From a virus: a stretch of 27,685 bases of DNA. Below the pieces are notes generated by a model that was not told the DNA's origin, did not search any database, and saw nothing but the letters and a program-made list of their open reading frames with translations. The position numbers and the translations under genes were made by a program. The DNA lies in IMG/VR virus record IMGVR_UViG_3300031576_000244, positions 1 to 27,685 of that record. One strand, given 5' to 3'. Shown here in pieces: positions 3,464-22,624 of the stretch; within the stretch, counting starts at the first letter, position 1, and each line of letters opens with the position of its first letter.

Positions 3464-4087
3464 TTAGAAGTTCGCTTCGGAGAACACCGCGTGGACCACG
3501 ACCGAGGCACCGGCGATGGCAGACAGGTTCTTGAGGGCGATCCCGTTCGAGGGGCCGGCGGCGATGCGCGGCATCTTCGAGCGCAACGACCAGTCCCACG
3601 TCTGGTCGTACTGCACGGGCGCGAGCCCATTGCCCGAGGTCGGCACAATCTGGATAAACTGGACGGTCACGCTGTCGAGCTGCGAGCCCTCCGTGCCCTT
3701 GGCGGTCGGGAGCGTCATCGCCGTCGCGCCCGACGCCGGATCCGTCGTGTCGTGCGGCACTGGCGTGACGGCAGAACCGCCCGTGCCGGCGGTCGTCAGC
3801 CGGAGGAGCGTCCAGCGCATGATCGCGGCCGTCGTCGCAAGGCCCGACTGGACAATCCGGAGCCGCCGCAGATATACGGTCAGCGACGAGCCAGCCATGA
3901 TCTGCATGACATGGTCGTTCGCCGTCGCCACCGACGGGCTGGCGATCGTCACGGCATACGTCGCGAGATACGCCTCAGCATCCAGGTGGACCTCGCGGTG
4001 CACCGTGTCGGGACCGATGACCTCGGTGACCGTATGCAGCTTGGTCGCACCGCCCTGTGTGACTTGGACGAAAGTCGAGGTTGCCAT
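3464..4087 (-). CDS. Predicted virion structural protein (207 aa)
   Basis: The ATG at 4087 gives MATSTFVQVTQGGATKLHTV. The sequence is beta-rich with many Thr, Val and Ala residues, has no hydrophobic anchor and has no catalytic motif. A segment QSGLATTAAIMRWTLLRLTT is followed by VQFIQIVPTSGNGLAPVQYD. Such proteins, seen next to distal tail genes, usually form part of the tail tip or a decoration on it. The gene starts 6 bases after the stop of the upstream gene and ends 7 bases before the hub-like gene, so it is inside the tail operon. The specific role is not recognised. Confidence 0.65.
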   Translation of the reverse strand: MATSTFVQVTQGGATKLHTVTEVIGPDTVHREVHLDAEAYLATYAVTIASPSVATANDHVMQIMAGSSLTVYLRRLRIVQSGLATTAAIMRWTLLRLTTAGTGGSAVTPVPHDTTDPASGATAMTLPTAKGTEGSQLDSVTVQFIQIVPTSGNGLAPVQYDQTWDWSLRSKMPRIAAGPSNGIALKNLSAIAGASVVVHAVFSEANF

Positions 4088-4093
4088 CGCGGC

Positions 4094-4564
4094 TTACTCC
4101 GATCGTCCGCAGGCGACTAGACAGCCGGCGTGGCAGGGCCGGTCCTCGGTCGCTAGCGGAAACGTCAGGGACCCGCAGGCGAGGAAGCCGAACGCCAGCG
4201 TCGGATCATCGCCGGCGACGAGGGCGCGGCCACAATCTGGACAGAGCAGCGCGCCGGGAATGCTCACCGCCCGCTCGACCTCCCAATAGGGCACGTCGCC
4301 GTCGTGCCCGGCCGGCTCGTCATCGGCCACGCCGAAGCGTCCGGGATCGAAGGTTCGGACGACCTCGCTGCGCATCGACGGCGGAGCATGGACCGGGTGC
4401 GGCGCCGTGCCCGACAGGGCGTCGAGGCGCAACAGCTCGGCGCCGATGACGGCCGCCAGGTGTTCCTGCTCGCGCTGCGACAGCTCGCGCTTGAACGTCC
4501 CAATCAGGGCGCCCGACTCGACGATGATCTCGATCTGGTCTATCTCATCCATTCCAGCCCTCAC
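4094..4564 (-). CDS. Tail-region protein with C-terminal Cys/His zinc-ribbon-like segment (156 aa)
   Basis: GTG at 4564 overlaps the tape-measure stop (GTGA, 4564-4561); an ATG four codons on (4552) is the alternative. The N-terminus (MDEIDQIEIIVESGALIGTF) resembles small tail-chaperone-like or helix/strand mixtures. The C-terminal third carries CPDCGRALVAGDD followed by ACG, then CHAGCLVACG, which gives several Cys and one His that could bind zinc. It is placed directly after the tape measure, where distal tail or baseplate factors are usual. No family is recognised. Confidence 0.6.
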   Translation of the reverse strand: MRAGMDEIDQIEIIVESGALIGTFKRELSQREQEHLAAVIGAELLRLDALSGTAPHPVHAPPSMRSEVVRTFDPGRFGVADDEPAGHDGDVPYWEVERAVSIPGALLCPDCGRALVAGDDPTLAFGFLACGSLTFPLATEDRPCHAGCLVACGRSE

Positions 4565-14028: not shown

Positions 14029-14349
14029 CTAGCGGTAAGTCTGGTACGCAGCGTGGCCGTTCGTGACGAGCCAGTCTGAGATGTTAGTGGCATCGGCATA
14101 CAGCTCCACGATCCAGCGGTCGAATGAATCCGCCTTCGCGGTCGCGACGAGGAAGGCGCCGACGGCGCTCAGACGCTCGGCGAGGGCCGCCTTGGCGAGA
14201 ACGCCCTCGGGTGTTGAAAGCTCGGGCGCGTTGATCCGGGCAAGCCGGTAGCTCCGTCCGAGACGGTGCTGGTAGAACCCGAGATCGAGATCGAGGACGA
14301 CCGTGTCGGCGTCAACGATGCGCCGGAGTACAGCCGCATATTGATACAT
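14029..14349 (-). CDS. Staphylococcal-nuclease-like (SNase) endonuclease (106 aa)
   Basis: The start is ATG 14349 (MYQYAAVLRRIVDADTVVLD); upstream sequence in this frame is shadow. The pattern RRIVDADTVVLDLDLGFYQH, then SYRLARINAPELSTPEGVLA and DSFDRWIVELYADATNISDW, VTNGHAAY is the SNase fold: the D.DT calcium-binding strand, the RL..INAPE loop with its Arg and Glu, and the second Arg in FDRW. SNase family proteins cleave DNA or RNA with calcium. Free-standing SNase genes are frequent in phages, where they may act in DNA processing or host DNA degradation. It overlaps the upstream small frame by 38 bases. Family call is strong; role is not known. Confidence 0.85.
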   Translation of the reverse strand: MYQYAAVLRRIVDADTVVLDLDLGFYQHRLGRSYRLARINAPELSTPEGVLAKAALAERLSAVGAFLVATAKADSFDRWIVELYADATNISDWLVTNGHAAYQTYR

Positions 14350-14551
14350 CCGAGTCCTTCGTGTAGCGGAAGATGATGTCGTGCTTCCGCGGGTAGTCCT
14401 TCCGCGGGAGCGGGCGCAGATCATCCGCTGCCGGCCGGGTCTTCGTCGCGGCCGGCCCGTGGATGGCTTTGTCGGCCGGTGCTGACGACCGGTGCTTCAC
14501 GGACGGGGAGGCTGGTGAAGTCGCTTCCCCGTCCGTCTGTCTCTCGGTCAA
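14312..14551 (-). CDS. Small Pro/Lys-rich frame, possible methyltransferase remnant (79 aa)
   Basis: ATG at 14551 overlaps the stop of the 82-residue gene (ATGA). The first 45 residues are Ser/Ala/Pro-rich and probably disordered. The end RKDYPRKHDIIFRYTKDSDV resembles the 'YPRKHDxIFxYTK' stretch that occurs in some beta-class adenine/cytosine DNA methyltransferases, so the frame may be a remnant of such an enzyme or an independent small gene filling the gap before the nuclease. It overlaps the nuclease start by 38 bases. The motif similarity is from memory of the family and is weak evidence. Confidence 0.4.
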   Translation of the reverse strand: MTERQTDGEATSPASPSVKHRSSAPADKAIHGPAATKTRPAADDLRPLPRKDYPRKHDIIFRYTKDSDVSICGCTPAHR

Positions 14552-15284: not shown

Positions 15285-15887
15285 TCAGGTGAGGGGCTGA
15301 GCTTTCGCCCAACGGCTACGACTGACCGCCCGCGATCGACAGGAGCCCGAGCAGTACTTCGTCTCGTTTGCCCGGCTTGCCTTCCGCTCATACGGTTTCC
15401 CGCATTCGTGACAGGTGAATGTCAGACGAGATCGCTGGCGGCGTGCGTTCTCCGGGTGGTACGCCTGATGGACGCTTGGGCTGACGACGAGCAGATTCTC
15501 AACTCGGTTGTCGAGCTTGTCGCCATTGATGTGGTGGACTTCCTCACGGCGTCCCAGCGGCCGGCGGAGCACCGTCTCCATCACTAGACGGTGCTCCAGC
15601 CTGTACTGATGGACGCCGACCTTGACGATCCGATAACCGTCCTTGCGGATGTAGGTCGTGCCGGTAACCCGCTCTACTCCCCGAAGCGCCGCGTGGCGAC
15701 ACTCCCGTGAGCAATAGCGTCCAGCGCCTGGCCGGCGTATCTCGTTGGCTTGACGGTAGATGCTGGCGCCGCAGATCAGGCAATTACTTCGCGTTCCAGT
15801 TCGCGGCAGTCCGCCCGGATGGCACTGGTAGCAGCGATTGCCCCAACGCCCGCCGAGCGGACCGTGGCAGATAGGACATGTCGCCAT
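15285..15887 (-). CDS. HNH homing-type endonuclease with zinc-finger motifs (200 aa)
   Basis: The protein starts MATCPICHGPLGGRWGNRCY, with CxxC pairs at the N-terminus (CPIC ... CYQC, then NCLIC) and CSRECRHAAL. The HNH core is HRLVMETVLRRPLGRREEVHHINGDKLDNRVENLLVVSPS in two steps: the HH pair followed by N.D..DNR.ENL, and a later HQ. A second Cys cluster FTCHECGKPYERKASR and KYCSGSCRSR ends the protein. The HHINGDKLDNRxENL motif is the classical signature of phage HNH homing nucleases. It lies alone between capsid and decoration gene and has an own promoter, features of a free-standing mobile nuclease. Such enzymes cut alleles lacking the gene and spread by repair; the exact target here is unknown. 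Confidence 0.9.
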   Translation of the reverse strand: MATCPICHGPLGGRWGNRCYQCHPGGLPRTGTRSNCLICGASIYRQANEIRRPGAGRYCSRECRHAALRGVERVTGTTYIRKDGYRIVKVGVHQYRLEHRLVMETVLRRPLGRREEVHHINGDKLDNRVENLLVVSPSVHQAYHPENARRQRSRLTFTCHECGKPYERKASRANETKYCSGSCRSRAVSRSRWAKAQPLT

Positions 15888-15920: not shown

Positions 15921-17204
15921 CTAAATGCCCGTAATAGACACGAAAGCGCTAGGACGGTAGACCGCGAGCGCGAGCCGCTCGTAGATCAGGACCGCGGCCT
16001 TGCGCTCGGTGAAGAACGTCGAGTGCTCGGTCGAGATCTCGATCGTCGCACCCTCACGCCGGAAGACCTGCGCCCACGGCCGGAAGCCGCCGACGAGTCC
16101 GGTGTTCTGGGTGATCGAGTTCGACACCCGCGCACCGAGGCCCCAGATCCGCTCCGGGCCAGTCTCGGACGGGGACCCCCAGATGTAGACGCCGTCGATC
16201 GTCCGCAGGAGGCGGATGTCCTGCCAGTCCTGGGCGTGGAAGACCGCGCCAGTCGGCTCGGCATCGCCGGTCGTGCGAGCGAGGACCATCGCCTTGTAGA
16301 CGGCATCGGGCGTCGGATCGGCGCCCTTCGCCTGCGTCTGGATGCCCGACGTGTTCAGGATGCCGCGCAGGTTCGGCGATGTGCCGTTGCCGGTCAGGAG
16401 CTGCGAGCTCCGCCGCAGGTTGACCATGTGACCGAGCCGGCCCTCGACGTAGCTTTGCAGGCCGACGGTGTCGCTGAGCGCGCGCCGCGTCACGGGGATG
16501 AAGGTCGAGATCTCCTGGACCGGGAACGTCCGGAGCGTGAAGTCGATGGCCCCCTCTGGCGCGGCCGTGCCCTCGGCGGTTTCGGCGGCGGCGTTGGTGA
16601 ACGTCGTCTCCTCGTAGAACTCGACCGTGTCCGACTCGGTCGTGCCCGGCGTGAACAGGTCGGTCACGTCGGCCAGGAACTGCGCCGACGGCGCGACCGC
16701 CTGGCGGTCGGCCTGCGGCGCGATGTCGGCCGAGGTGAGCAGCACCTTGACGCCGGCCGCACCGAGCAGTTGGACGTACTCGCGCTCGGTCAGCTCGAAG
16801 TGGATCGAGCCCGAGCCGCCGGCGGCGATCGCCTTGAGCTCGGCGTTCTTGCCGCCGAAGACCTCGCGCAACGGGCGTGCCTTCGCGCCGCCCTCGCCGG
16901 CCGGCTGGCCGAGCGTGTCGGGCGACATGGCCGGCCGCAGGTTGGTCAGGCCCCGGAGGGCCTGCTCGTTGTCCCAGGCCGCCTTCTCGAGACTGACGGC
17001 GGCCTCGTAGGTGCGCGCCTTGGCGGCGATCGCCTCGTTCAGCTTCTGGGCCTGACCGACCCAATCGCCACCCTGGTAGCCATCGGCCACGCCGGCGGCG
17101 TCACGCTTGACATTGGCCGCGAAGAGATCGGCGACCTCCTTGCGCGCCTTGGCCAGATCCTCGCCCAGCGCGATCGTCGCGCTCGACGCTCGAAACTCGT
17201 TCAC
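15921..17204 (-). CDS. HK97-family major capsid protein (427 aa)
   Basis: This forms the icosahedral head shell. Residues 1-110 are a helical, charged delta/scaffold-like region (MNEFRASSATIALGEDLAKA, EVADLFAANVKRDAAGVADG). The HK97 fold follows: the N-arm, an extended E-loop-like part (EFYEETTFTNAAAETAEGTA), P-domain spine helix (RALSDTVGLQSYVEGRLGHM with NLRRSSQLLTGNGTSPNLRG) and the A-domain end (TEHSTFFTERKAAVLIYERL, ALAVYRPSAFVSITGI). The phrase LLTGNGTSPNLRGILN and the ending with 'AVxxPxAF' are typical for this family. It lies after the protease, overlapping it by four bases, as in HK97-like phages. Confidence 0.95.
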   Translation of the reverse strand: MNEFRASSATIALGEDLAKARKEVADLFAANVKRDAAGVADGYQGGDWVGQAQKLNEAIAAKARTYEAAVSLEKAAWDNEQALRGLTNLRPAMSPDTLGQPAGEGGAKARPLREVFGGKNAELKAIAAGGSGSIHFELTEREYVQLLGAAGVKVLLTSADIAPQADRQAVAPSAQFLADVTDLFTPGTTESDTVEFYEETTFTNAAAETAEGTAAPEGAIDFTLRTFPVQEISTFIPVTRRALSDTVGLQSYVEGRLGHMVNLRRSSQLLTGNGTSPNLRGILNTSGIQTQAKGADPTPDAVYKAMVLARTTGDAEPTGAVFHAQDWQDIRLLRTIDGVYIWGSPSETGPERIWGLGARVSNSITQNTGLVGGFRPWAQVFRREGATIEISTEHSTFFTERKAAVLIYERLALAVYRPSAFVSITGI

Positions 17205-18304
17205 GATACGGCTCCTTGTGGGATGCGGGGCACATCGACGCCGAGGAAGACGGCCTCCTCGAGGAGCGCCGCGACGGCATCGAACGACTTGTCGGGGTCG
17301 GTGTCTGCGAGGATCTGCTCGATCGAGTCGCGCAGCTCCGCGAGACGCCGCCTGTTCGCGGCCGACAACACGCGGCCCTCCTTCTGGCGGAGGGCGGCCA
17401 TCTGGCTGAGCCGTGCGGATAGCGCCTCGCCGTCGCCGAGGAACCGTGCGACGGACTCGGCAAGGCTGATACCGGCATCCGGCATCACACCGCGCAGCTC
17501 AGGAGGCTCGAGATCGGCGTCGCGAAGGTGGCCGGCGAGATGCCGCCAGACACCCTCGCGGTCGGCGTCGGGGATGTCCGCCCCGCCGCGCCCGCCGTTG
17601 AGGACGGCGATCCCCGCCGAGGCGGCGGTCGTGCTCGCAGCGCCGACGTCGCCATTCTCGGAGACCGTGTGGTGAATGAACTTGTATGTAGCCTTCGTCT
17701 CGGGATCGCCGTCCGGGTCGGCCCACGCATGAGCCGCGCGCAGCGCCGCCCGCGACGATGGCAGGCGCGCCTCGTTCGCCGGGCCGTCCCATGCGCCACC
17801 GTATGTCGACGTCGAATGCGGCGTGATCGCCGCCTTGGCGGCCTTGACCGCGGCCAGATTGGCCTCGCGGTTCATCGGCACCATGACGAAGCCGACCTCG
17901 TAGAGCGGGTTGATCGTCTTCAGGTGGCGGATGCCGTCGCTGCTGATCTCCTGGTCCTCGACGCCGTAGCCGATGGACAGGCCCGTCCGCTTGCCGGCCC
18001 GGCGGCGTTCGTAGGCGATCGTGCGGGCGCGCTGTCCCTCGGGCGTCGAGTGGAACTCACCGGCGATCCACAGGCCGTGATCGTCCTCGCGCGCCTGGCG
18101 CGGCATGCCGATCGGCTCGGCCCAGTCGTGCGACCAGGAGAAGAAGCCGTCGCGCAGGAATGCCGGGATCGCCTTCTTGAACGCGCCGCGCTCGATGATG
18201 TCGCCACCGGCGTCGAGGTTGCCGAAGACGGAGGCGTAGCCCTCGAACTCGCCCGAGGCCGCATCGACCTTGAGCTCCGCGAAGTCGACAGTCTTTCGTT
18301 CCAT
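17201..18304 (-). CDS. HK97 prohead protease with C-terminal extra domain (367 aa)
   Basis: The S78-type serine protease processes the capsid delta domain. The sequence EFEGYASVFGNLDAGGDIIE and SWSHDWAEPIGMP contains the active-site His (H59), and GLSIGYGVED the nucleophilic Ser (S110); NPLYEVGFVMVPMNREANLA ends the protease core. Residues about 165-290 form a second domain: the AWDGPANEARL, YKFIHHTVSENGDVG, LNGGRGGADIPDADREGVWR and HLAGHLRDADLEPPELRG pattern recurs in some phage proteases of unknown extra function. Its ATG overlaps the portal stop (TGATG). Confidence 0.93.
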   Translation of the reverse strand: MERKTVDFAELKVDAASGEFEGYASVFGNLDAGGDIIERGAFKKAIPAFLRDGFFSWSHDWAEPIGMPRQAREDDHGLWIAGEFHSTPEGQRARTIAYERRRAGKRTGLSIGYGVEDQEISSDGIRHLKTINPLYEVGFVMVPMNREANLAAVKAAKAAITPHSTSTYGGAWDGPANEARLPSSRAALRAAHAWADPDGDPETKATYKFIHHTVSENGDVGAASTTAASAGIAVLNGGRGGADIPDADREGVWRHLAGHLRDADLEPPELRGVMPDAGISLAESVARFLGDGEALSARLSQMAALRQKEGRVLSAANRRRLAELRDSIEQILADTDPDKSFDAVAALLEEAVFLGVDVPRIPQGAVS

Positions 18305-19584
18305 CAGACAGGCTCCCCTACCGGCTTCGCGCCGTTCCGCGAGGTCATCGTGGTCGTCGTGATCGAGCCGTCGGGATTGACGGTCGTCATGTTCAGTGGC
18401 ACGAGGTAGTCCTCTCCACCGGCGAACCGCTGCCAGTCCTCAAGGTCGGCGATCCGATCGCCGTTCACGAAACCCCACTGGCGACCGATGGCGTACGACT
18501 CGAAGCGCGTCTTGAGATCGGCCCGCTCGAGCGCCGCGACGTTGAACTTGACGTAGTGCTCGCCGCCGAGGCCCAGCCAGTCGCGGCCAAGGAGCTGGAG
18601 GCCGATGTCCTGCTCCCAGCGGACGATCCACGGCAGGAGCGTGTACTTCACGAACTCGAGCGACTGGTGCTCGATGTTGGTGAACGTCGCGCGCTCCAGA
18701 TCGGCCAGCATGTGCGGCGGGATGCGGAAGCGGCGCGCGATATCGGTGACCTGGAGCTTGCGCGTTTCGAGCCACTGCGCGTCGTCGTTCGGGATCGAGA
18801 TCGTGAGCGGCTTCAGGCCCTCCTCGAGGACCCACGGCTCCCAGGCGTGGAGGAGCCCCGACTTCTCGTCCTTTATCTGCCCGGCCAGACGCTCGATCGA
18901 ATCCTTCGACAGCGTCTTGTCGGTGCCGAGGACGAAGTTCGACGTCGCGCCAGAACCGAAGAACCGCGCACCGTGCTCCTCGGCGGCGAGCCCGAGGCCG
19001 ATCGTCTCGCGGGCCATGCGCAGCACCGAATAGCCCTGATCGCCGTCCCAGCCCAGGCCGGCCAGGTGGAAGACCTGATCGCGCGTCAGGTCGATGGTCG
19101 TGCCATCGCGGCGCGTGTAGCGGTAGATGAGCGCGAAACCGGGCGGATCGCGGCGGACCTCCATCCGATCCGTCGCCAGCGGCCGCAGCTCACGCAGCGC
19201 ACCGAGGCCGTCGTAGATCTTCAGCGCGTAGCCGTTGCCCCAGGTGACGGTGTGCGTCATCGCCGTCTCGACGAACCGGTACGCCGTCGTCTCGGGGTTC
19301 GTCGTGTAATGCAGCAGGCGATGGACGGGATGATCGCGCGCCACCGTCCGCTCGGCCGCCGGTCCGAGGCGCATGACATCGATCGGCAGGCTGGCCATCG
19401 ACTCGGCCAGGATGCGCACCGCCGCCCAGAACGCAGCGTAGCGCATCGCCCGGTCGGTGGTGATCGAGAGGCCCGTCACCGAGCGCCCGCCGCCGACCAT
19501 GATCTGCGCGATGTGGCCACCCGCGGCGAGCGTGCCGACGCCCTGATCGAAGGCTTTGACCGCGGCGCGCGCGAAGATAGCCAT
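18304..19584 (-). CDS. HK97-family portal protein (426 aa)
   Basis: The start at 19584 (MAIFARAAVKAFDQGVGTLA) is fixed by the TGATG overlap with the small membrane gene; the frame is open for 30 further codons upstream. The sequence YAAFWAAVRILAESMASLPI, WGNGYALKIYDGLGALRELR, FHLAGLGWDGDQGYSVLRMA, ISIPNDDAQWLETRKLQVTD and RRFRIPPHMLADLERATFTN with LPWIVRWEQDI contains the hallmarks of the HK97 portal family. The portal forms the dodecameric DNA channel at one head vertex and docks the terminase. Gene order TerL-portal-protease-capsid is the canonical one. Confidence 0.95.
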   Translation of the reverse strand: MAIFARAAVKAFDQGVGTLAAGGHIAQIMVGGGRSVTGLSITTDRAMRYAAFWAAVRILAESMASLPIDVMRLGPAAERTVARDHPVHRLLHYTTNPETTAYRFVETAMTHTVTWGNGYALKIYDGLGALRELRPLATDRMEVRRDPPGFALIYRYTRRDGTTIDLTRDQVFHLAGLGWDGDQGYSVLRMARETIGLGLAAEEHGARFFGSGATSNFVLGTDKTLSKDSIERLAGQIKDEKSGLLHAWEPWVLEEGLKPLTISIPNDDAQWLETRKLQVTDIARRFRIPPHMLADLERATFTNIEHQSLEFVKYTLLPWIVRWEQDIGLQLLGRDWLGLGGEHYVKFNVAALERADLKTRFESYAIGRQWGFVNGDRIADLEDWQRFAGGEDYLVPLNMTTVNPDGSITTTTMTSRNGAKPVGEPV

Positions 19585-19748
19585 CAGCGGCTGCCGAAGC
19601 GCACGGTCGCCATGAGGCCGAGCCCGAGGGCGATCGGGCCGAGAACTGCGCCCCAGCCGCCGGGGACCTGCCACGCACCATACGCAATCGTGGCTAGGCC
19701 GGCGATGACGAGAGCGTCAGGCAGGAGCCCCAGAAGCTGCTTCATCAT
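19584..19748 (-). CDS. Small membrane protein between terminase and portal (54 aa)
   Basis: ATG 19748 (or the adjacent ATG 19745) follows the ribosome site GGAGG at 4 bases and overlaps the end of TerL by 32 bases. The product (MMKQLLGLLPDALVIAGLAT, then WQVPGGWGAVLGPIALGLGL) has two hydrophobic helices joined by a WQVPGGWG turn and a basic C-terminus RFGSR. It could be a holin-like or a small membrane-anchored packaging-region protein. Small membrane proteins at this position occur in other HK97-type phages without a known role. The stop overlaps the portal start. Confidence 0.75.
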   Translation of the reverse strand: MMKQLLGLLPDALVIAGLATIAYGAWQVPGGWGAVLGPIALGLGLMATVRFGSR

Positions 19749-21870
19749 CGGACCTCCGGCGCAACACGAGGAAGCCGCGCGTCTCGTAGACGGATGCCGC
19801 GATTGGCGCTGCGGCGTGATACGTCGCCCGGTCATAGGCGCCGACGGCGCAGATACCGAGGTCGATGACGCGCGGCGAGCCGCGGTGCTCCTTGACCGGC
19901 CGCGGGCCAAGGCGATCGATCTTGATCGTCATGTTCGAGATGTGACGGACGAGGCGCGGGTCGCCGTCGTGCGTGATCCGACCGCCCAGCAACGCGTCCT
20001 GGAACTTGGCCCAGGCGGGCACCATGCGCGCCGGCGATGATGTCGGGTATTCGATGATCGGCAGCCCCTCGGCGCCCAGCTCCTCGATCTGCTGGGCCCA
20101 GCGAAAGGGGTCCATCGCAATCTCGACGACATCGTAGGTCTTCGGCAACTCGCGGATCATGGCCATGACCTCGGCCAGCGGCACCCGCCAGGCCGGGTTG
20201 TCGAGCGGTCGTTCCCAGCAGCCCAGCACGCCGAGATGACCGTCGAGCGTGGCACCGAGGAGCGCCGTGCAGTCGTGATTGAACGAGCCGTCAAAGAAGA
20301 CGACGATCTTCTCGCCCGGTTGCAGCTGCCGCGGGCGCGCCTGCTTCTCGAACAGGCCCGCCGGCACGGCCGCCAGCGTCGAGGCCACCCACTGGTTGCG
20401 GCGCTTGATCCGGAACTCCGACTCGGCCATGCCGCCGGTCAACGCCCGGCGGGCCTGAACGCGCAGCTCGGCGGCATCGAGGATATCGCCATAGCCGGGG
20501 TTCGCCTGACGATGGCCGCGTTCGTCGTCGAGCGCCAGGTCCTCGGCCTCCCAGCAAGCGAAGAAGAACGTCGGGTCGTCGATCTCACCGGCGGCCACGC
20601 GGCGGCCGTACTGGTAGAGCGTGTAGCAGATCGAGTCCTGGCCAGTCGTATCCGTCCGCACGCCGGCCGTCGTGACGATGAGCATGAGCGGATCGACGCG
20701 GGTGCCCATGGCGAGGGCCATCACGTCGTACAGCTCGCGCGTCGGCCAGGCATGCAACTCGTCGGCGATGACGAGCGTCGGGCTGAGGCCTTCCTTCGTG
20801 TACGCCTCGGCCGACAGCGCACGGTAGATGCCGCCAGTCTTCGGGTCCTCGATCGTGTGCGACGTCCGAAAGACCTTGAAGCGCTCCGAGAGATCGGTCA
20901 GCTCGACCGTCCGCACGGCCGCGCCGAAGACGATCCGTGCCTGGTCCCGATCGGCCGCGCAGGAGTTATGGCTGAAGAGGCCCTCGACGAACAGGGTCCC
21001 GGTGGATGTTCCGAGTGCGACGACCTCACGCTCACCTATAGGCTCGACCGTCGCGATGGTGGCCTCAGAGACGCCGTCAAAGAGGCCCGCCAGGTATCCG
21101 CCTCCACGCGACTCGTCGGTAACCCAGGGTGTCCCAAGATCACGGATCCTCGATCCTGGTCGCAGCGAGCGTGTTTCGACCCATTCGGAGATCCCGCCTG
21201 ATCGCCCTCGATGCGCAACCCATCGGTGGGTGGCGGATGCGACGACCTCTCGGCCATCAGTAAATACCAGCCGAAATGCCTGCTGGAAGATCCGGGCAGT
21301 CGACTCGACCGTTGCATACCGCAACTTCCGATAGCCACCGGCCGCATGTTCATCGAACGCCAATAGCTCGTCGCCAACGGACAAGTCACCGATCGGCCGC
21401 CAGACGAGGTCCGCGCAGAGCGCCCTTGCGTTCGGATCGAGACAGTAGACCTCGGCGCCCTCGCCGAATGTCAGCGCATTTAGTGCGATCGGCGCGACCG
21501 CGCTAGTCTTACCGTTCTTGCGGCCCATCGACCAGTAAGCCGTCCGGTGCAATCGGCGGTCGGTCTGAGGATCGCGGGCGAACGTCCGGCGGTACAGTTG
21601 CTGCTGCCAGCCGCGCAGGTTCAGCAGTTGGCCGGTCAGCCCGGCGATGCTGTCCTTCGTGATGACGCCGTAGGCGGCCACGAAATCGAGATAATCCTGG
21701 CCGTCACCGGCGGCGATGGCGGCCGGCGCAACCGGCGTCAGCCAGCGCGGCGGCCAGCCTTGCGCTCGGCGCGGCGATCCATGATCTCCTCGAGCTTCGA
21801 GCGCGTCTTGACCTCGGCCACGCCGAGCCGGCTTCGATCGGCCGGTGTCAGGCCGAGCAGTGACAGACAC
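19717..21870 (-). CDS. Terminase large subunit (TerL) interrupted by a mini-intein (717 aa precursor)
   Basis: TerL is the ATP-driven packaging motor and DNA-cutting enzyme. The Walker A motif is GRKNGKTSA (about 116-124), the Walker B and catalytic Glu are LVIADE followed by LHAWPTRELYDVMALAMGTR; the nuclease part starts near VVFFDGSFNHDCTALLGATL, with ITTAGVRTDTTGQDS between. The precursor carries an intein of 160 residues (143-302), so the spliced product has about 557 residues, normal for the family. Start is uncertain: GTG 21870 includes the family-like PPRWLTPV stretch but overlaps TerS by 133 bases; CTG 21741 overlaps the TerS stop as CTGA; GTG 21681 seems too short. The protein ends 32 bases inside the small membrane gene. 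Confidence 0.93.
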   Translation of the reverse strand: MSVTARPDTGRSKPARRGRGQDALEARGDHGSPRRAQGWPPRWLTPVAPAAIAAGDGQDYLDFVAAYGVITKDSIAGLTGQLLNLRGWQQQLYRRTFARDPQTDRRLHRTAYWSMGRKNGKTSAVAPIALNALTFGEGAEVYCLDPNARALCADLVWRPIGDLSVGDELLAFDEHAAGGYRKLRYATVESTARIFQQAFRLVFTDGREVVASATHRWVAHRGRSGGISEWVETRSLRPGSRIRDLGTPWVTDESRGGGYLAGLFDGVSEATIATVEPIGEREVVALGTSTGTLFVEGLFSHNSCAADRDQARIVFGAAVRTVELTDLSERFKVFRTSHTIEDPKTGGIYRALSAEAYTKEGLSPTLVIADELHAWPTRELYDVMALAMGTRVDPLMLIVTTAGVRTDTTGQDSICYTLYQYGRRVAAGEIDDPTFFFACWEAEDLALDDERGHRQANPGYGDILDAAELRVQARRALTGGMAESEFRIKRRNQWVASTLAAVPAGLFEKQARPRQLQPGEKIVVFFDGSFNHDCTALLGATLDGHLGVLGCWERPLDNPAWRVPLAEVMAMIRELPKTYDVVEIAMDPFRWAQQIEELGAEGLPIIEYPTSSPARMVPAWAKFQDALLGGRITHDGDPRLVRHISNMTIKIDRLGPRPVKEHRGSPRVIDLGICAVGAYDRATYHAAAPIAASVYETRGFLVLRRRSDDEAASGAPA
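20965..21444 (-). mobile_element. Mini-intein in TerL, with a residual LAGLIDADG motif
   Basis: The insert begins at Cys (TerL residue 143, CLDPNARALCADLVWRPIGD) and ends in VEGLFSHN followed by Ser (residues 302/303). Block A (SVGDELLAFDE), block B (SATHRWVAH), block F-like VEPIGEREVVALGTSTGT and block G are present, with the penultimate His, terminal Asn and +1 Ser, so splicing residues look complete. The flanking host sequence EVY/SCAADRDQARIVF reads through normally after splicing. Between blocks B and F only a short region remains, holding GGGYLAGLFDG: the first motif of a LAGLIDADG homing nuclease directly joined to block F. The endonuclease was therefore deleted, leaving a splicing-only element of 160 residues. 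Confidence 0.9.
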
Positions 21871-22220
21871 CCGATCAGCTCCTTCGTCAGGTCACGGTAG
21901 GCACGGAACGCCGGCTCGCTGAACTCGACGTCGAGCGCGGCCCGCAACCGTTCTGCGTCATCCCAGAGTCGCTGGGCGAGGCGCACGATCGGCATATCGG
22001 TCGGCCCGATCCAGACCGCAGCGCCGGATGTCACCAGAGCCTCGATCAGTGGCCCGTCCGGCGACAATGTGACGGCTGGCAGGAGCACCAGCGCGCGGCG
22101 CGCACCCGGATCACGATCACGACGATACGTCCCGCGGCGCTTCTTCTCTTCGATCGGCAACGGCGGCGGACCAGACAAGCGTTCTCCCAACTTGACAGCG
22201 AGTGCGCGTGACTTCGGCAA
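21738..22220 (-). CDS. Terminase small subunit, P27-like (160 aa)
   Basis: The TerS recognises phage DNA and regulates TerL. The frame begins with TTG at 22220 (MPKSRALAVKLGERLSGPPP); no ATG start is available and no clear ribosome site is visible. The central and C-terminal parts LTPADRSRLGVAEVKTRSKL with RAYRDLTKELIGCLSLLGLT are the pattern of P27-type small terminases, ending with a basic tail ERKAGRRAG. It sits directly before TerL with the usual overlap. An upstream HNH nuclease gene ends 19 bases before its start. Confidence 0.85.
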   Translation of the reverse strand: MPKSRALAVKLGERLSGPPPLPIEEKKRRGTYRRDRDPGARRALVLLPAVTLSPDGPLIEALVTSGAAVWIGPTDMPIVRLAQRLWDDAERLRAALDVEFSEPAFRAYRDLTKELIGCLSLLGLTPADRSRLGVAEVKTRSKLEEIMDRRAERKAGRRAG

Positions 22221-22239: not shown

Positions 22240-22530
22240 TTACCAGCGATTTAGACCCCCCTCCCACCGCCGACTACTGTTGCACGCGCGACACATGACG
22301 GCGTCGTTCGCGTGATCGGTCGTGAGATCGGTGGTCGCACCGCATACCACGCACCACGGCTGTTCGGCGATACGCCGTCTGGAGTACCGCTGCCAGCGCG
22401 AGCCGTATCCACGTTCGGCGGTACCGGGACGGCGCGCCCGGTCGAGAGCGCGGTCATGCTCGGGACAACGGGTCCGCGTCGTGAGGCGGCCACACACCAC
22501 ACCGGGGAGCCCGAGGCATGGACGCTTCAT
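22240..22530 (-). CDS. Short HNH endonuclease at the packaging region (96 aa)
   Basis: The ATG at 22530 (MKRPCLGLPGVVCGRLTTRT) is chosen over the TTG two codons upstream. The N-terminal part has CxxC-like CLGLPGVVCG and TRCPEHD, followed by GSRWQRYSRRRIAEQPWCVV, CGATTDLTTDHANDAVMCRA and CNSSRRWEGG. The C..C, DH and C..CN residues form an HNH/zinc core, but the loop between DH and the second Cys pair is shorter than in typical members. HNH genes next to TerS are common in siphoviruses, where they assist TerL in cutting; loss of loop residues here might affect activity. About 90 bases (22531-22624) upstream hold no gene. Confidence 0.85.
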   Translation of the reverse strand: MKRPCLGLPGVVCGRLTTRTRCPEHDRALDRARRPGTAERGYGSRWQRYSRRRIAEQPWCVVCGATTDLTTDHANDAVMCRACNSSRRWEGGLNRW

Positions 22531-22624
22531 GGGCAAGCTACCGCTAGATGACGGTCAGCGACGACGCGGCAGCCTGACCATCGCCGCGGCCTCTTGGAGG
22601 CGCTACAAGTTGTCGAGCGGCACT

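Follow-up and report, generated by a model that had tools for sequence, protein, structure and literature searches.

The inteins in annotated phages that lie nearest to the one described here are those of the terminase-like protein Pham3880 of cluster C1 mycobacteriophages and of a Gordonia portal protein. The Pham3880-g intein, of the Bxz1 type and represented by ET08 gp239 and ScottMcG gp245, has 269 residues with a nuclease unit present and interrupts a terminase-like ATPase at SPY/S, a site close to where the ATPase domain ends (PMC5050341). This related intein of the C1 family has been found to splice in a reporter (PMC5050341). Natural mini-inteins such as MchDnaB-1, gp41-1, and the Ssp DnaB intein (1mi8) are HINT folds of about 125 to 170 residues with no nuclease, and it is accepted that mini-inteins arise when an intein that has homed loses its nuclease (PMC8966425).

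The window analyzed here, a stretch of 27,685 bases, is the whole record of an uncultivated virus, and its TerL gene holds an insert of 160 residues. We consider it highly probable, at roughly 0.9, that the insert is a class 1 mini-intein in the ATPase half of TerL which arose from a full-length intein by deletion of the nuclease and which should still splice. Direct support comes from full-length relatives at the same site, intein-free alleles, the ends of the deletion, a complete set of splice residues, and the predicted HINT fold. The intein belongs to the known HEN-less mini-inteins, among which it is a new and well-resolved example, and it overturns no current view. Nuclease loss is a textbook stage of intein life. 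Its added interest is that all stages are visible at one TerL site and that the parent family has a single-unit nuclease. Empty site, five full-length alleles, and deleted form stand together as a clear late stage of the homing cycle in phage, and because all three are at hand, the deletion ends are directly readable.

Like Pham3880-g, the window intein lies in a terminase-like ATPase, with 40.7% identity in the splicing domain (tblastn, E = 1e-23) and GYLAGFxDG in the same place. Unlike it, the window intein lacks the nuclease unit and occupies a different site in a different host protein family. Where the window reads GYLAGLFDG, the Pham3880 and Gordonia inteins have GYLAGFMDGEG or GWIAGFFDGEG, followed by about 100 residues that are absent from the window.

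Position of the insert in the TerL gene

TerS, TerL, portal, protease, and major head protein form one packaging and head gene block on the minus strand (Table 1). The intein comprises TerL residues 143 to 302, beginning with CLDPNARALC and ending with LFSHN, after which comes Ser. Its 480 bp are in frame, with C1 encoded at 21444-21442 and N160 at 20967-20965, and our reading of the sequence gave exactly the coordinates and the size that had been predicted. The insertion point also falls where it had been placed, between Walker A and the next ATPase segment, in a conserved stretch 20 residues past the Walker A threonine. Among the TerL1 sites a to e of Kelley et al. 2016, it is not the P-loop site, because the TerL of phage Henry, which has its intein there, carries GEIYGVARDKKQA uninterrupted, nor, by position, the Walker B site.

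A spliced TerL of 557 residues had been anticipated, and this length depends on a start at the GTG at 21870. A TerL starting there overlaps the end of the TerS ORF by 44 codons (21738-21870); the true start may therefore lie downstream of this GTG, which would leave a spliced product of fewer than 557 residues.

An HNH gene next to TerS is a common arrangement in phages. We weighed the one at 22240-22536 as a possible homing nuclease acting in trans and rejected this role, since its matches are to generic phage HNH families and it adjoins TerS.

Table 1. Features of the TerL mini-intein and its surroundings (positions in the window)
Feature	Position	Strand	Evidence
Mini-intein, 160 aa, class 1 type, site EVY/SCAAD	20965..21444	minus	Empty-site, same-site, and family comparison
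Block A, CLDPNARALCADL, nucleophile C1	21406..21444	minus	C1 in 99/99 relatives
Block B, DGREVVASATHRW (S70, H73)	21220..21258	minus	H73 in 99/99; S/T at position 70 in 95/99
LAGLIDADG motif scar GYLAGLFDG, intein residues 116-124	21073..21099	minus	Alignment; partly predicted disordered
Deletion junction VSEA, intein residues 125-128	21061..21072	minus	Alignment to same-site inteins
Blocks F and G, TVEPIGEREVVALGTSTGTLFVEGLFSHN, H159 and N160	20965..21051	minus	T146, G155, N160 in 97-99/99; H159 in 90/99
+1 residue Ser of C-extein	20962..20964	minus	S/F at the same place in intein-free TerLs
Walker A GRKNGKT	21505..21525	minus	Sequence reading; kept in L001-L014
TerL ORF, N-extein, intein, and C-extein, 717 aa, stop-free	19717..21870	minus	Pfam TerL_ATPase E = 1.5e-20; phrog_9 E = 5e-96
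TerS	21738-22220	minus	PHROG match
Portal	18304-19674	minus	PHROG match
Protease	17201-18304	minus	PHROG match
Major head protein	15921-17204	minus	PHROG match
Endonuclease loci: two HNH genes and a match to one further endonuclease family	22240-22536, 15285-15887, 14029-14424	minus	Family matches

The empty site in intein-free TerLs

Viral contigs scanned with TerL yielded 13 close relatives in which the insert is absent and the joint can be read. The joint is exactly EVYSCAADRDQ in six of them, the reading that the original prediction had demanded of intein-free alleles, and EIYFCAADREQ (three TerLs) or EVYSAAADRPQ (four) in the others; extein identity to the window TerL is 59 to 69% for 7 of the 13. 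Given 13 uninterrupted joints, a conserved TerL strand is regained once the 160 residues are taken out, as expected of an intein. Since these close relatives lack it, the intein is sporadic at the level of the clade, as seen from one contig plus relatives, and a single contig does not justify the word "fixed" used in the original proposal. A DNA scan of viral contigs for GAEVYC[LV].P gave for the most part TerLs that lack an intein and naturally have a Cys at this place, together with L087 and L168, two of the full-length inteins described below.

Splice residues and predicted fold

The conservation values in Table 1 were scored over 99 relatives in a family of 100 distinct intein members that includes the window and was found by alignment queries; a scan of viral contigs with the window intein as a single protein query gave no match. 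The class 1 residue set is present, consisting of C1, H73, N160, and Ser+1. C1, H73, G155, and N160 do not vary within the family, and most members have His at position 159. The splice residues named in the original prediction hold for C1, the penultimate His, the Asn, and the +1 Ser, but block B, given there as T..H, is S-A-T-H, that is, S..H. A Ser three positions before the His also occurs in 43/99 relatives.

AlphaFold, with an alignment of 15 rows, gave a closed HINT fold (mean pLDDT 86.6, pTM 0.83), and Foldseek returned the Ssp (Synechocystis) DnaB intein 1mi8 as the best match (TM 0.83 by target length), with other inteins and hedgehog among its further matches, so that both methods point to the HINT fold. 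MchDnaB-1, gp41-1, and Ssp DnaB resemble the window intein in this fold, in their size, and in having no nuclease, whereas they belong to other families and are only about 16 to 20% identical to it. The insert is real and not due to chance because the tblastn match reaches E = 1e-23, a family of 100 aligns, and the predicted fold matches solved inteins. The mini-intein itself goes unrecognized by Pfam and NCBIfam at their cut-offs.

The GC3 of the intein is 0.675, against 0.873 for the C-extein and 0.81 to 0.92 for five neighboring ORFs, and this low value is in keeping with its having been acquired from another source. The contrast is not absolute, as the N-extein, which partly overlaps TerS, has a GC3 of 0.746.

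Probable loss of the nuclease

Five full-length TerL inteins in IMG/VR are inserted at the same codon boundary, namely L087 (250 aa), L168 (252 aa), L203 (255 aa), L204 (261 aa), and L223 (255 aa), so the search for relatives at EVY/SCAAD that had been recommended was productive. They share with the window the identical insertion point, GAE[VI]Y/[ST], and the clade, and unlike the window they have a complete single LAGLIDADG unit. Compared with them, the window intein is missing about 90 to 101 residues, in frame, from just after FDG to before block F. As had been noticed, GGGYLAGLFDG is joined directly to the block F region, the next residues being VSEATIATVEPIGEREVVAL; after FDG and VSEA the window continues with TIATVEPIGEREVVAL, which aligns to EVVSVEPLGMRTLIDI, SVTAIEFLGEREVVAI, and their equivalents in the same-site inteins. 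What lies opposite the gap in all five is the nuclease, and the internal deletion that had been proposed is thereby supported. GYLAG-x-FDGE is found at the aligned place in the full-length relatives, including those five, which is where the motif had to be if the proposal was right.

The proposal erred in calling this the first LAGLIDADG motif. It is the only one in the family, and its counterpart in two-motif nucleases is the second motif (block E). Motif counts gave a single LAGLIDADG motif per intein for almost every full-length member, and a single-unit profile applied to the few two-motif members (L116 and L162-L164) scored 40 to 47 bits on their second half and 1 to 6 bits on their first; the scar is thus not a "first" motif in the usual sense.

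In LAGLIDADG enzymes, the residue after DG carries the catalytic (metal-binding) acid. Of the 99 scored sequences, 94 have E at this position and 3 have D, but the window has V, and its motif is incomplete, having been cut before its catalytic acid. With the acid changed to V and the domain absent, the insert is not an active LAGLIDADG homing endonuclease, and judged by its sequence, no nuclease function can remain; a Pfam search of the window intein gave no LAGLIDADG match. The catalytic splice positions are kept while the nuclease domain is absent, and full-length allelic relatives have a nuclease at the gap, as is expected for a mini-intein. In the AlphaFold model, pLDDT falls below 50 at SRGGGYLAG only, and the prediction for the scar is thus a disordered, loose linker loop.

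We propose that the ancestor was an intein of about 250 to 260 residues with a single-unit LAGLIDADG homing endonuclease, and that an in-frame loss of about 90 to 100 residues, beginning immediately behind LAGLFDG and ending shortly before block F, would have removed the nuclease and therefore the ability to home. The HINT domain that was left would excise itself by an acyl shift at C1, transfer to Ser+1, cyclization of Asn160, and ligation, and the ligation would restore the conserved EVY-SCAADRDQ strand. From its residues, the window intein should splice. We infer the order of these events, and also that the loss came about because selection on the nuclease relaxed once homing was complete.

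Relatives at the same site and the wider family

The TerLs that host the five same-site inteins have only 26 to 31% extein identity to the window, whereas the splicing domains of four of these inteins (L087, L168, L203, and L204) are 43 to 52% identical to that of the window. The inteins are thus more alike than their host TerLs, which points to horizontal movement between TerLs. In a tree of the 100 family members, calculated with the LAGLIDADG motif columns left out, the window falls in a clade of nine (local support, 0.91) with L087, L168, L203, L204, and L223, as well as L086, L123, and L095. The chance of finding 5/5 same-site inteins among its eight tree neighbors is 8e-7 (hypergeometric), a value that is indicative only given the kinship among the five. 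The closest intein by sequence is L086 (56%), whose host is a phage protein other than TerL, and the family members collected did not include the immediate full-length parent. None of the family matches in 138 annotated phage records reaches into the EVY flank; these records are of the C1-mycobacteriophage type and the Gordonia-portal type, plus one unannotated record.

The family is a wide one among phages (L081, L082, and L086-L232), with inteins of about 240 to 290 aa that have a single LAGLIDADG unit and occur in TerL and portal as well as in many further phage proteins. The EVY/S site of TerL in distant uncultivated viruses, with its five full-length inteins, is an insertion hot spot. Because most of its 100 members have one LAGLIDADG unit, about 100 residues long, the family could reveal how a single-unit nuclease works inside an intein and how often it is lost, and the compact phage intein could serve as a tool in protein engineering.

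Alternative explanations

The mini-intein might be the ancestral form, with the nuclease gained later by the full-length relatives, and nuclease invasion is indeed an accepted route to the composite structure of inteins in general. However, the window retains a nuclease-derived motif, each column of which aligns with the nuclease in at least 90% of its relatives, and its intein nests within the clade of full-length same-site inteins, which makes this order of events hardly credible. An error of assembly or sequencing, hiding a true allele that has the nuclease, would be in line with a single metagenomic contig and with a scan of viral contigs for GYLAGLFDGV in which, the window's own record possibly being left out, no second contig had the deletion junction. 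Yet the reading frame is kept across the gap, whose ends coincide with the border of the domain, the predicted fold closes well, and a second, independent mini-intein of like design exists (L207), so we hold an artifact to be very improbable.

Two other readings accept the deletion and differ in what became of the intein. That it is retained because conditional splicing regulates packaging, and not as a leftover of homing, would agree with the clustering of inteins in TerL ATPase domains and with the regulatory role proposed for phage inteins (PMC5050341), but 13 close relatives manage without it and GC3 suggests a fairly recent arrival; we regard this as unlikely. A dead intein in a phage with inactive TerL is extremely improbable, for all splice residues and the open frame persist, the surrounding packaging genes are intact by family match, and TerL, if unspliced, would hold 160 extra residues in its ATPase core. 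We favor a mini-intein left by nuclease deletion that should still splice.

Other mini-inteins in the family

Only 4 of the 100 members are shorter than 200 aa: the window intein, L137, L159, and L207. The motif is kept in the window and L207 and absent in L137 and L159. L207 (positions 4001-4558, 186 aa) interrupts a phage protein other than TerL on the 147-kb contig IMGVR_UViG_3300028920_000035 of an uncultivated virus, and its nuclease is cut off after AWMAGIIDGEGWLSG. It resembles the window in belonging to the same family and in having lost the nuclease after the LAGLIDADG motif, and it differs in that its motif still has the catalytic acid (DGEG), with about 10 more nuclease residues kept, in its host protein, and in the deletion, which is independent. 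It is conceivable, though we offer it only tentatively, that a widespread intein family with a single-motif half-LAGLIDADG nuclease has a homing hot spot in the EVY/S strand of TerL, and that its members decay by repeatable deletions in which the motif stays behind as a linker scar; the window would then be the first TerL case of this decayed state. The L137 and L159 mini-inteins have 156 to 158 aa and share the site CT[YF]/C. For L159, two-motif alleles of 339 aa (L162-L164) are present in other cyanobacteria, another visible loss of a nuclease.
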